Assembly (NCBI GenBank): GCA_947311105.1
Contig: CAMZKG010000246.1
Coordinates: forward strand, 1-32,117
DNA length: 32,117 bases
DNA from: an uncultured Saprospiraceae bacterium
GTDB taxonomy: Bacteria; Bacteroidota; Bacteroidia; Chitinophagales; Saprospiraceae
Direction: 5' to 3'
Numbering within the stretch: position 1 is the first letter of the stretch; each line of letters starts with the position of its first letter. The translations under genes and the position numbers were made by a program. The notes under the pieces were generated by a model. It saw only the letters and a program-made list of their open reading frames with translations, was not told where the DNA came from and did not search any database. Positions 4,617 through 32,117 of the stretch are shown one piece after another.

Positions 4617-4665
4617 AAATAGATACTGATTGATTCTTTTGATGATCTTTGTAAAAACAAAGATT

Positions 4666-6210
4666 ATGGCATCCAACAGAATTAAGATTATGGATCTACG
4701 ACAATTATTACAGCTCAAAGCAAAAGGACTGAGCAATCGAAAATCAAGCCTTCTAATCGGAATTCACCGTAATTCCATCAATAGTTATGTCCGGTTATTT
4801 AATTCGACTGGGATGAGCTACAAAGAACTTCTTACGCAGTCTGACGCAGAGTTATCAACGCTATTTCCACTCCATCAAACTATCGATAAACGGCGATACG
4901 AAGAGCTGTGTAGCCAGTTTATGTATTACAGAGAAGAACTAAAAAAGCCTGGTTGTACGAGGCAAGTTTTATGGAAGGAGTATCTAACTAGCCATCCTGA
5001 AGGCTACGGATACACACAATTTAACGAACACTTTAAAAGATGGCTAAAACCATTAAAAGGAAGTGGAAAATTGAACCACAAAGCTGGCGATAAAGTTTAT
5101 ATCGATTATACTGGAAAAAAACTTAGCTATACCGACAAAGAAACTGGCGAGCTCATAGAAGTGGAAGTATTTGTCGGAATACTGCCGTGCAGTAACTATA
5201 CTTTTGTAGAAGCTTCTCCATCTCAGAAGTTGGGGGATTTCATTGATTCCATGAATAATTGTCTTCGATATTTTGGAGGAGTACCCAAAGCTATTGTACC
5301 TGACAATCTAAAATCTGCGGTCACAAAAGGAAGTAAATATGCGCCAACAATCAACAAAAGCTTTAAGGATTTTGCCCTTCATTACGGCAGTGTGATTAAT
5401 CCTACAAGAACATATTCTCCACAGGATAAGGCTCTAGTTGAAGGGGCTGTAAAACTAGTATATCAGCGTATTTTCTACCCACTTAGCAAGATGAATTTCT
5501 TTTCATTACCAGATTTAAACAAAGAAATTAAAAGGCTACTAGAGGAATATAATGACCAGCCTATGACTAATATTGAGCTTTCTAGAAAGCAACAGTTTTT
5601 AAGTATTGAGGCAAGTTACTTATCCCCATTGGTACAAAATAATTATGAAATTAAGTATTATAAGACATCCAAAGTTCAAAAAATGGGATATATATTCCTA
5701 TCTGATGATAAGAACTATTACAGCGTGCCGTACCGCTATATTGGCAAAAAGGTTGAAGTCTCTTACAATAGTCAAAGCGTTGATATTCAGTACAATAGAG
5801 AGCGAATAGCTATCCATAGAAGAAGTTTTCAAGCAGGCCGATATATCACCATTAAAGACCATTTAAGCAGTTCTCATAAATTTTATAGCGATTGGAGTCC
5901 ACTGTTTTTTGAAAAGCTTGCACGTCCATATGGGGTGGCTGTAGTAGAATATTTCAAATGTCTTATTGAATCAAAGCCCTACCCTGAAGTTGCGTACAAA
6001 CAATGCTTAGGACTCTTAAGTCTAAGTAAAGAGTACAATAAGGAACGACTAAACAATGCTTGTAAACGAGGCCTAACAAACCATAAATATGGCTTTCACA
6101 TTATTGAAAACATCCTTAAAAACAATATGGACAAGCTAGAGCAAGACGAGCAACTAAATCATGAAATTGCAGCCCATAAAAACATCAGAGGTGCTGCTTA
6201 TTACCAATAA
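4666..6210 (+). CDS. istA: IS21-family transposase IstA (start could be 4642 or 4666)
   Basis: HTH plus rve/DDE core: YIDYTGKKL, IVPDNLKSAV, ALVEGAVKLVYQRI. Confidence 0.93.
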   Translation: MASNRIKIMDLRQLLQLKAKGLSNRKSSLLIGIHRNSINSYVRLFNSTGMSYKELLTQSDAELSTLFPLHQTIDKRRYEELCSQFMYYREELKKPGCTRQVLWKEYLTSHPEGYGYTQFNEHFKRWLKPLKGSGKLNHKAGDKVYIDYTGKKLSYTDKETGELIEVEVFVGILPCSNYTFVEASPSQKLGDFIDSMNNCLRYFGGVPKAIVPDNLKSAVTKGSKYAPTINKSFKDFALHYGSVINPTRTYSPQDKALVEGAVKLVYQRIFYPLSKMNFFSLPDLNKEIKRLLEEYNDQPMTNIELSRKQQFLSIEASYLSPLVQNNYEIKYYKTSKVQKMGYIFLSDDKNYYSVPYRYIGKKVEVSYNSQSVDIQYNRERIAIHRRSFQAGRYITIKDHLSSSHKFYSDWSPLFFEKLARPYGVAVVEYFKCLIESKPYPEVAYKQCLGLLSLSKEYNKERLNNACKRGLTNHKYGFHIIENILKNNMDKLEQDEQLNHEIAAHKNIRGAAYYQ

Positions 6211-6225
6211 TTAAAAATTGAAAAA

Positions 6226-6966
6226 ATGAATCAACAACTGACCATTGAAAAAATGAAATCTATGCGCCTGTTAGGCATGGCACAGATACATTTTGCTAAC
6301 CTACAAGACAACATCCATCAAGACTACACATTGGATCAATATGTGGCTTTATTAGTCGAACAAGAGTGGGAGTATCGACAAAATCGCAAACTAAAAAACA
6401 TGCTAACTAAAGCAAAATTTAGATCTGATGCCGATATCAATAATATTGACTTCACCTCTGATAGAGGTCTAGATAAGAATGCGTTTAATAGACTTGCTAG
6501 TCTTGACTTTCTATCTAGGCATGAAAATATTATTATTACTGGTCCAACTGGGACAGGGAAAAGCTATCTAGCTCAAGCTATTGGGAGGCAAGCCTGCATC
6601 TACCTAAATAAGACCAGATACTATACCGCTGCAAAATTAATAGATGAAATAAATCTTGCTAAATTACAAGGAACATACCATCGACTCATCAAAGGTATTC
6701 AAAATACAAAATTGCTGATTATTGATGACTTTGGAATCAATCCTTTTGACCAAAATTCAAGACAAGCGCTTATGGATATTGTGGACTACAAATACGATAG
6801 ATCATCGTTGATTATCACATCTCAAATACCTGTTAAAAATTGGCATGAACTAATAGGGGAAGGTACAATTGCTGATGCCATATTGGATAGAATCATCCAC
6901 TCTTCACACAGAATCAACCTAAAAGGTGATTCCCTTAGAAAGAAAAGAAAAATAAGTTTAATTTAA
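6226..6966 (+). CDS. istB: IS21-like element helper ATPase IstB
   Basis: Walker [14 protein letters not shown], Walker B LLIIDDFGI, ITSQIPVKNWHELIGEGTIADAILDRIIHSSHRI. Confidence 0.95.
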   Translation: MNQQLTIEKMKSMRLLGMAQIHFANLQDNIHQDYTLDQYVALLVEQEWEYRQNRKLKNMLTKAKFRSDADINNIDFTSDRGLDKNAFNRLASLDFLSRHENIIITGPTGTGKSYLAQAIGRQACIYLNKTRYYTAAKLIDEINLAKLQGTYHRLIKGIQNTKLLIIDDFGINPFDQNSRQALMDIVDYKYDRSSLIITSQIPVKNWHELIGEGTIADAILDRIIHSSHRINLKGDSLRKKRKISLI

Positions 6967-22757: not shown

Positions 22758-22806
22758 GTAGATACAATTCACGAATTGTATCTACGTAATTCACGAATTG
22801 TATCTA
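22758..22806. repeat. Perfect palindrome plus partial direct repeat between convergent genes
   Basis: GTAGATACAATT-CACG-AATTGTATCTAC (12-bp arms) followed by GTAATTCACGAATTGTATCTAC. Confidence 0.85.
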
Positions 22807-22815
22807 CTCAAGAGA

Positions 22816-30461: not shown

Positions 30462-31085
30462 ATGAAGCAGATTTTCTTTTTACAGTTTCTATTGCCTATG
30501 TTCTTTTTCGGTGGCACCCCGACCGCCGCATGGAAACTAAAATCCCAAAAGGGAAATATCAAAATTTATACGCGCACTACTACAAAATCTGACATCAAAG
30601 AAGTGCGCATTACCACCCAAATCGAAGGTGACTTAGATGATTTACTTACCTTATTGGATGACGTAGCTAGCTTTAAATCTTGGCTGTATCGCTGTACTGA
30701 GTCTAAAGTACTAAAAACTGTTGCTGAAGGCGAATATTATTATTACAATCTGACTGATTTTCCTTTCCCCCTAAGTGATCGCGATATGGTTATTCACTCT
30801 AAAACTTGGAAAGTACCAGGCTCCAATATGGTCAAAACTCACTCAAAGGCTTATACTAAAGATGATTTATATAAGGAACAAGCGGGCATTGTCCGAATAA
30901 AAATCCTAGAATATTCTTGGACTTTCACGCCTTTGGACAATGGCATGATTGATATAGATTATGAGATTTTCAGCGATCCTGGCGGTGCTTTACCTTCTTG
31001 GGTAATAAACATGGCGGTCTCCAAAGGCCCAATGGAAACCATGCTTCACTTAAAAAAAGAAATGAACCGTCGCTATAACAAATAA
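30462..31085 (+). CDS. START-domain-like protein
   Basis: Signal peptide; lipid-binding START pattern ...LLTLLDDVASFKSWLYRCTESKVLKTV...YYYNLTDFPFPLSDRDMVIHSK...WVINMAVSKGPMETMLHLKKEM. Confidence 0.85.
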   Translation: MKQIFFLQFLLPMFFFGGTPTAAWKLKSQKGNIKIYTRTTTKSDIKEVRITTQIEGDLDDLLTLLDDVASFKSWLYRCTESKVLKTVAEGEYYYYNLTDFPFPLSDRDMVIHSKTWKVPGSNMVKTHSKAYTKDDLYKEQAGIVRIKILEYSWTFTPLDNGMIDIDYEIFSDPGGALPSWVINMAVSKGPMETMLHLKKEMNRRYNK

Positions 31086-31960
31086 GGATTTGAGCGCCCT
31101 TTGGGATGACAAAAATGTGCCAATTCCATTTTTTGTTTTAAGCTAGGAACTAATGACATGAAGGACGGTAATTTATGAATTCGGGAGTAACTATTATTAA
31201 TAACTGTACGCATCAACCCATTATTCCAGACTCTATTTTCTCCACTATCTTTAAAGTGATGCCACTGATCTGCACCGGCGTATCCCGTAATAATTAATTG
31301 TGGAAAATCTCTTAACTTGAACAAAAGCGCCCGACTCTCTCCCTTGTAAAAGGGATTCCAAAAAGATGATTCTTCAAAAGGACGCTCTTTGGGTCGGCGA
31401 TTATTTTTAAATTTATCGTATAGGCTACTAAGATAGTTTTCTTGCTTTTCCGAAAGGTGAATACTAATCAACTCTTTTCGATCTTCCAATGAATCCGATG
31501 CTTTCAAAAAAGTAAATAAGTATTTTTTGTCGTAAGACTTCGAGATAACAGTTTTATCTCTTTTTGCCCACTGGTCATAATTTGTTTTATTGGGGATCAA
31601 TGCGGGGAGCCACTTGTAATATTTTTTAAAAAGGTAGTTTCCTTTATGATAAATAAAATTATTTTTGATGTCCCACTCTGTATTTTGAAAGACAAAATCT
31701 GTTTTGTCTGGTCTATAAAAAGGCGTTTCGCCGATGGCTCTATTGATGTCTATTTGATTGCTTTCGCAAAAATAAAAGAAGAGCCCTTCGGCTAATTTTC
31801 CTTTGGCAATGTTGGCTATTTTTCTTTCTAACCCCCTGATTCCCATACGATTATAGGTAAACGGGATGGATATAATGGCATACTCTACAGCCTTTCGGCA
31901 AATATTCAAATAGGCATCTTTGGGTATGCCATTGACGATGATTACTTCTGTCTCTTGCAT
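31073..31960 (-). CDS. Uncharacterised protein with PD-(D/E)XK nuclease-like motif pattern
   Basis: KGKLAEGLFFYF...YRPDKTDFVFQNTEWDIKNNF fits alpha-1 Glu + D-Xn-(D/E)XK spacing; no confident family recognition. Confidence 0.5.
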   Translation of the reverse strand: MQETEVIIVNGIPKDAYLNICRKAVEYAIISIPFTYNRMGIRGLERKIANIAKGKLAEGLFFYFCESNQIDINRAIGETPFYRPDKTDFVFQNTEWDIKNNFIYHKGNYLFKKYYKWLPALIPNKTNYDQWAKRDKTVISKSYDKKYLFTFLKASDSLEDRKELISIHLSEKQENYLSSLYDKFKNNRRPKERPFEESSFWNPFYKGESRALLFKLRDFPQLIITGYAGADQWHHFKDSGENRVWNNGLMRTVINNSYSRIHKLPSFMSLVPSLKQKMELAHFCHPKGRSNPYLL

Positions 31961-32025
31961 GGCTTTTTTTTGGGTTATGGAAAAATTCTATTTTTGTTAC
32001 CTGAAAATTCTGTTTTTTCATGCCT

Positions 32026-32117
32026 GAAAATTCGTGAATTTTATGGCTCAGCAGAGAAAATTCGTGAATTTTATGGCTCAGCAGAGAAAATTCGTGAATT
32101 TTATGGCTCAGCAGAGA
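32026..32117. repeat. Perfect 30-bp tandem repeat (>=3 copies) running off the window edge
   Basis: GAAAATTCGTGAATTTTATGGCTCAGCAGA at 32026-32055, 32056-32085, 32086-32115, then GA. Confidence 0.95.

Follow-up and report, generated by a model that had tools for sequence, protein, structure and literature searches.

The minus-strand open reading frame (ORF) near the end of the window and a methylase gene on another contig (C33) of the same genome probably form a working Type II restriction-modification (R-M) pair, whose genes are separated in a Saprospiraceae genus and in which the neighbouring 30-bp repeat array is uninvolved. We give this reading a probability of about 0.86. As one half of the pair, the ORF product would belong to the PD-(D/E)XK superfamily and act as an orthodox Type II restriction endonuclease. 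The other half would be the ~465-aa N6_N4-type methyltransferase encoded on C33. This enzyme would modify the recognition sites in the host's DNA, and the endonuclease would cut phage or plasmid DNA that enters the cell with its sites unmarked; E58, D88, D97 and K99 are the predicted metal-binding and catalytic residues of the endonuclease. The Saprospiraceae genus would inherit both genes at separate chromosomal places, while most other carriers have them as tail-to-tail neighbours; the array would play no role in the R-M system. The family, the invariant residues, the fold, the adjacent partner in most carriers, co-occurrence, purifying selection and site avoidance are computed results; that the two proteins cleave and methylate DNA, which site they recognise exactly and that they still act as a pair when unlinked is what we infer.

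The Predicted Endonuclease and Its Sequence Family

The window, that is the whole stretch of DNA analysed (32,117 nucleotides), is the entire contig C246 of a 3.83-Mb genome in 328 contigs (G000), which close homologues of the endonuclease in Saprospiraceae assign to this family of Bacteroidota. The genes and codons at its end are as follows.

31073..31960, minus strand: predicted Type II restriction endonuclease, 295 aa, ATG start, PD-(D/E)XK fold, family without a database name
31787..31789, minus strand: codon of Glu58, predicted active-site Glu, invariant, in helix 44-67
31697..31699, minus strand: codon of Asp88, predicted metal ligand and D of PD, invariant, at the start of strand 89-91
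31664..31672, minus strand: codons of Asp97-Ile98-Lys99, the D-x-K, invariant, in strand 94-104
30462..31085, plus strand: 207-aa START-like protein (named from its sequence), convergent neighbour of the endonuclease, outside the system

The original prediction had described a 295-aa minus-strand ORF at 31073-31960 whose start codon lies about 65 bp from perfect 30-bp repeats, and both the coordinates and the repeats were reproduced. The ATG, 157 bp from the end of C246, is backed by close homologues that start at the same residue. In two sister genomes (loci L047 and L048) the gene downstream is likewise an orthologue of the START-like gene; this neighbour marks the chromosomal setting and is not an R-M component. 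Elsewhere in the window, two adjacent ORFs at 4630-6966 read like an IS21-type istA/istB pair (a 526-aa integrase-like protein and a 246-aa ATPase), and a 339-aa ORF whose sequence has a Schlafen-like look adjoins them.

Sequence searches with the endonuclease against Pfam, NCBIfam, PADLOC, PHROGs and the PDB gave no match, in keeping with the earlier statement that no family could be recognised for the ORF with confidence. A TIGR03574 match (0.008) was discarded, being 275 bits under its cut-off. No relatives were found among phage, plasmid and IMG/VR records. The family thus carries no name in the libraries searched and may be present in REBASE as a putative enzyme. Three homologues were found among 395 genomes of the class, and a phylum-wide draw of 396 genomes yielded no additional endonuclease carrier. 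A profile was needed to recover relatives from genome contigs: the single-protein query found no homologue, and the profile search of the same contigs found 20 homologous loci in Bacteroidota, KSB1, Calditrichota and Neomarinimicrobia.

The endonuclease has the motif layout KGKLAE...DKTDF...EWDIKNN. Invariant residues in an alignment of 21 sequences include N50, K53, G54, K55, E58, D85, D88, E95-W-D97-I-K99-N-N and D129-Q-W. The PD-(D/E)XK-like motif order first proposed for this ORF was thereby borne out, with E58, D88, D97 and K99 unchanged in all 21 sequences. In the unlinked lineage both the endonuclease and the methylase gene are under purifying selection (dN 0.15-0.19, dS 1.8 or saturated).

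Predicted Fold

AlphaFold modelled the endonuclease with pLDDT 89.8 and pTM 0.91. In the model, E58 lies on helix 44-67 and D88, D97 and K99 lie on or beside a strand pair, which is the PD-(D/E)XK residue layout: a Glu in the first core helix, an Asp and a D-x-K, all invariant and placed in the model. The catalytic residues of EcoRV are D74, D90 and K92 (PMC4081073), a D...D-x-K pattern similar to that of D88, D97 and K99. A Foldseek comparison with the PDB returned EcoRV as the best match, followed by HincII and BglI, all of them weak, with a best E of 0.04 and probabilities of 0.18-0.28. EcoRV chains made up 29 of the 30 top PDB fold matches; these are repeated entries and not independent. 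The top PDB matches come from the EcoRV/HincII/BglI (beta) branch and are non-significant. Predicted phage structures gave fold matches up to probability 1.0 (E 1e-4 to 2e-3), two of them named restriction endonuclease.

The original prediction had read the ORF as a possible nuclease of the PD-(D/E)XK type and proposed comparing an AlphaFold model with such folds. That comparison produced a confident model that resembles EcoRV, HincII and BglI weakly and phage restriction endonuclease models at probability 1.0. The nuclease reading is upheld by the invariant residues, the high-confidence model, its Foldseek neighbours and a methyltransferase partner.

The Probable Methylase Partner and Its Separation From the Endonuclease

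In 13 of the 20 homologous loci, across Bacteroidota, KSB1, Calditrichota and Neomarinimicrobia, the next gene encodes a methyltransferase (N6_N4_Mtase, PF01555, E 1e-23; Type II MTase according to PADLOC), which makes a Type II restriction endonuclease the most likely identity of the ORF product. Type II R-M systems are built in this way, with the endonuclease and methyltransferase genes next to each other. Eleven of the 13 pairs, among them L010 and L011, are arranged tail-to-tail and either overlap or are separated by up to about 75 bp; the remaining two are head-to-head (L052) and convergent at a distance of 1.5 kb (L059). The methylase of the window's own genome is the following.

G000:C33:41350-42747: N6_N4-type methylase, ~465 aa, intact, with the motifs DPMSGTGST and TSPPYWD (as read from the sequence)

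It lies on a different contig (C33) from the endonuclease (C246). The usual Type II adjacency is likewise missing from the rest of the window's genus and from G899, L053 and L054, where the two genes are unlinked too, and on the endonuclease tree the unlinked state requires three changes. Every intact endonuclease without an adjacent methylase had a methylase elsewhere in its genome, one of which was seen in part at a contig end. In G731, the genome of L047, the methylase is found on a contig of 95 kb between genes that read as housekeeping; its upstream neighbours are those seen on C33, and the endonuclease lies on a different contig. In G899 the endonuclease and the methylase are on separate contigs (128 kb and 87 kb), the latter gene beside genes reading as purK/purE. 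A methylase without an endonuclease was observed in this same purK/purE-like setting at locus L103 (G1006:C139).

On C33, 236 bp remain between the methylase and the contig end, so that each of the two genes in the window's genome is less than 240 bp away from such an end, and their non-linkage in this genome consequently rests on analogy with the sister genomes. These positions (236 bp for the methylase, 157 bp for the endonuclease start) would suit genes that are adjacent here and parted by an assembly gap alone, an arrangement that we consider quite unlikely. In the closest long-contig relative, the methylase has the upstream genes of C33, and no endonuclease was found in the ~78 kb and 10 kb around it; the endonuclease of the same relative has 2.4 kb of upstream sequence without a methylase, and that of L048 has 3.8 kb. 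The sister genome speaks against a join of C33 and C246 across a gap, which the position of both genes at contig ends had first suggested.

Genes kept apart, as in our preferred reading, have a precedent in the 'separated' Type II R-M systems that Ershova et al. (2012) predicted, in which the two genes are more than 4 kb apart; those with orthologous linked systems in other taxa form the more reliable class, and the Type II cases were sequence predictions with no experimental proof at that time (PMC3488263). The present genes are more than 4 kb apart in the unlinked state of G731 and have linked orthologues at L050-L066. Since they are unlinked here and linked in other carriers, the system is 'separated' in the sense of that study.

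Co-occurrence of the Two Genes

The endonuclease and the methylase belong together by three tests: co-occurrence, distances, and a broken gene where the methylase is missing. Among 298 Saprospiraceae genomes the endonuclease was found in six and the methylase in seven, and all six endonuclease genomes were among those seven. Among 395 genomes of the class, all three methylase carriers also had the endonuclease, and in the sole endonuclease genome without a methylase (G228, the genome of L064 / L009) an in-frame TGA breaks the endonuclease. The distance matrices correlated with r 0.59, a value reached in none of 5000 permutations and to which linked pairs and shared ancestry contribute.

A different view of the ORF would be that of a solitary endonuclease-like gene that has lost its link to the C33 methylase and is inactive, is protected by a different methylase or has taken another role (e.g., methyl-directed, Type IV-like). 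Linkage of the two genes is indeed missing from the window's genus and three other lineages, and inactivity has been reported for some solitary endonucleases (PMC3488263). However, this view is unlikely given that all predicted catalytic residues are retained, the gene is under purifying selection, its co-occurrence with the methylase is strict and the one endonuclease seen in a genome that lacks the methylase is broken.

Avoidance of a Candidate Recognition Site

Genomes that have long harboured an orthodox Type II system tend to be depleted of its sites, which applies to about half of the known orthodox systems, and such avoidance can persist after the system is lost (PMC4687349). We counted 352 symmetric six-base patterns in 0.17-0.42 Mb of sequence per genome. 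GTMKAC was the most avoided of them in three carriers of the genus, with observed/expected counts of 15/174 (the window's genome), 4/180 and 13/66, and GTAGAC, its non-palindromic member, ranked first for avoidance among all hexamers. The pattern was next tried in genomes other than those that had suggested it. It was absent from the sequence of two unrelated carrier groups, the f36 carriers (0/9.8) and G734 (0/3.9), jointly 0 against 13.7 expected, and a non-carrier, G744, showed no avoidance (113/110). The short loci of other carriers gave a mixed picture, and carriers G899, G735 and G1052 avoided GTMKAC little or not at all. For a whole-genome test, GTAGAC was counted against its reversed word; the median ratio was 0.097 in carriers and 0.34 in non-carriers. 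The ratio was lower in carriers with p = 0.004, a comparison in which close relatives were merged and the source genus left out, all non-carriers were Saprospiraceae and taxonomy was not controlled.

Avoidance of GTMKAC was also found in G742, a genome of the same genus (79% complete) in which neither gene was found. Loss of the system, its absence from the assembly or the presence of another system would each account for this, and since the avoidance occurs there with neither gene found, another system could be its cause. Two further members of the family without the endonuclease-methylase system, G756 and G752, had GTAGAC ratios of 0.04 and 0.07 and may hold another enzyme for the site. These three genomes favour an origin of the avoidance in an unrelated R-M system, in which case the endonuclease-methylase pair would have a different site. 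We regard such an origin as possible but doubtful, for the avoidance recurs in the unrelated carriers f36 and G734, GTAGAC is lower in carriers overall, and avoidance can outlast the system that caused it (PMC4687349). Our preferred assignment is that the pair itself recognises GTMKAC (AccI-type), which is probable rather than firm.

Other short sites are also scarce in this genus. GATC, GGCC and CGCG were strongly under-represented in the genus stretches (L104-L163, L184-L203), GATC being seen 432 times in the window's genome against 1309 expected, and TTCGAA, CATATG and ATCGAT were under-represented in the genus stretches as well. This depletion of tetramers and hexamers hints at further past or present R-M systems and, like the weak avoidance of GTMKAC in some carriers, counts against our reading.

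The Repeat Array Upstream of the Endonuclease

Two stretches separate the endonuclease from the end of the contig.

32026..32117, no strand: 30-bp tandem array of 3.1 copies, cut by the contig end (Tandem Repeats Finder, period 30, 100% match)
31982..32025, no strand: decayed repeat-like stretch between array and gene (Tandem Repeats Finder, within a weak array at 31982-32042, period 23, 79%)

The copy number of 3.1 is a minimum, position 32117 being the end of C246. The weak array at 31982-32042 agrees with the earlier description of an array that decays toward the gene. The repeat core, AATTCACGAATT, occurs in 67 copies at 39 places in the window's genome, 14 of which are arrays, and the period is mostly between 18 and 36 bases; a second array of the palindrome lies within the window itself at 22766-22807. 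With ~1.5 copies expected from base composition and none of the reversed control, the 67 copies are not due to chance, yet they are not special to the endonuclease gene. The arms of the palindrome vary in step on either side (GAGAAAATTC..GAATTTTCTC and GAGCCAATTC..GAATTGGCTC, and further AAAATTC/GAATTTT and GCCAATTC/GAATTGGC), often in short tandem arrays, and such coordinated variation appears as in hairpin-forming repeats. The window holds another tandem array at 1203-1347, with a 62-bp unit that includes the inverted repeat GTATCTAGCAA...TTGCTAGATAC.

The original prediction had suggested that the array might serve the nuclease as an operator, a self-target or an addressing element. What speaks for such a tie is proximity, about 65 bp to the start codon with the decayed stretch in between. 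However, the core is dispersed over 39 places, with periods mostly of 18-36, the repeat lies beside none of the 20 homologous loci, and no copy of the core was found in three genomes of the same genus that carry the endonuclease gene (G739, G740 and G741). The proximity of array and gene is therefore accidental as far as these counts go, and a functional tie is very improbable. Homologues consistently lacking adjacent repeats had been named in advance as grounds for giving up the link, and this is what the 20 loci show. We judge the array to be a dispersed, genome-specific palindromic repeat that has expanded in this genome and is no part of the R-M system. The idea of an undescribed module of repeat and nuclease was dropped, and the ORF is read instead as the endonuclease half of a Type II R-M system with separated genes.

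Significance and Comparison With Known Systems

Linkage is the usual state of R-M genes, as would be expected of pairs that behave as selfish addiction elements. If our reading is true, a pair kept apart over a genus with a strongly depleted candidate site would be a Type II system retained as host immunity without linkage. The fullest form of this proposal, a functional genus-wide Type II R-M system with stably unlinked genes, an unnamed endonuclease family and GTMKAC specificity, resident as an immune trait for so long that its site has been purged from the genome, could be right or wrong with equal chance in our estimation. The endonuclease family was missed by general libraries, and GTMKAC is its predicted candidate site.

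The closest known systems in predicted catalytic layout (a Glu in a helix, an Asp and a D-x-K on paired strands) are the orthodox Type II R-M systems whose endonucleases belong to the EcoRV/HincII/BglI (beta) branch (PMC4081073); EcoRV, HincII and BglI are also the nearest folds in the PDB, and these systems likewise have the endonuclease and the methylase as separate proteins. In contrast to these, the present endonuclease has no detectable sequence similarity to any PDB chain (best fold E 0.04), and the genes are unlinked in the window's genus. With the 'separated' systems of Ershova et al. the pair shares a distance of more than 4 kb between endonuclease and methylase and linked orthologous systems elsewhere; it differs in that the separation is inherited genus-wide, in conserved settings and with a site-avoidance footprint. 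AccI (GTMKAC) would have its recognition sequence in common with the endonuclease-methylase pair, provided that the avoidance stems from this pair, whereas the endonuclease has no Pfam match and hence none to the AccI family, if Pfam holds one. As far as the sequences tell, what is new is the unnamed endonuclease family, and the kind of system, a 'separated' Type II R-M system with a predicted site, is a known one.
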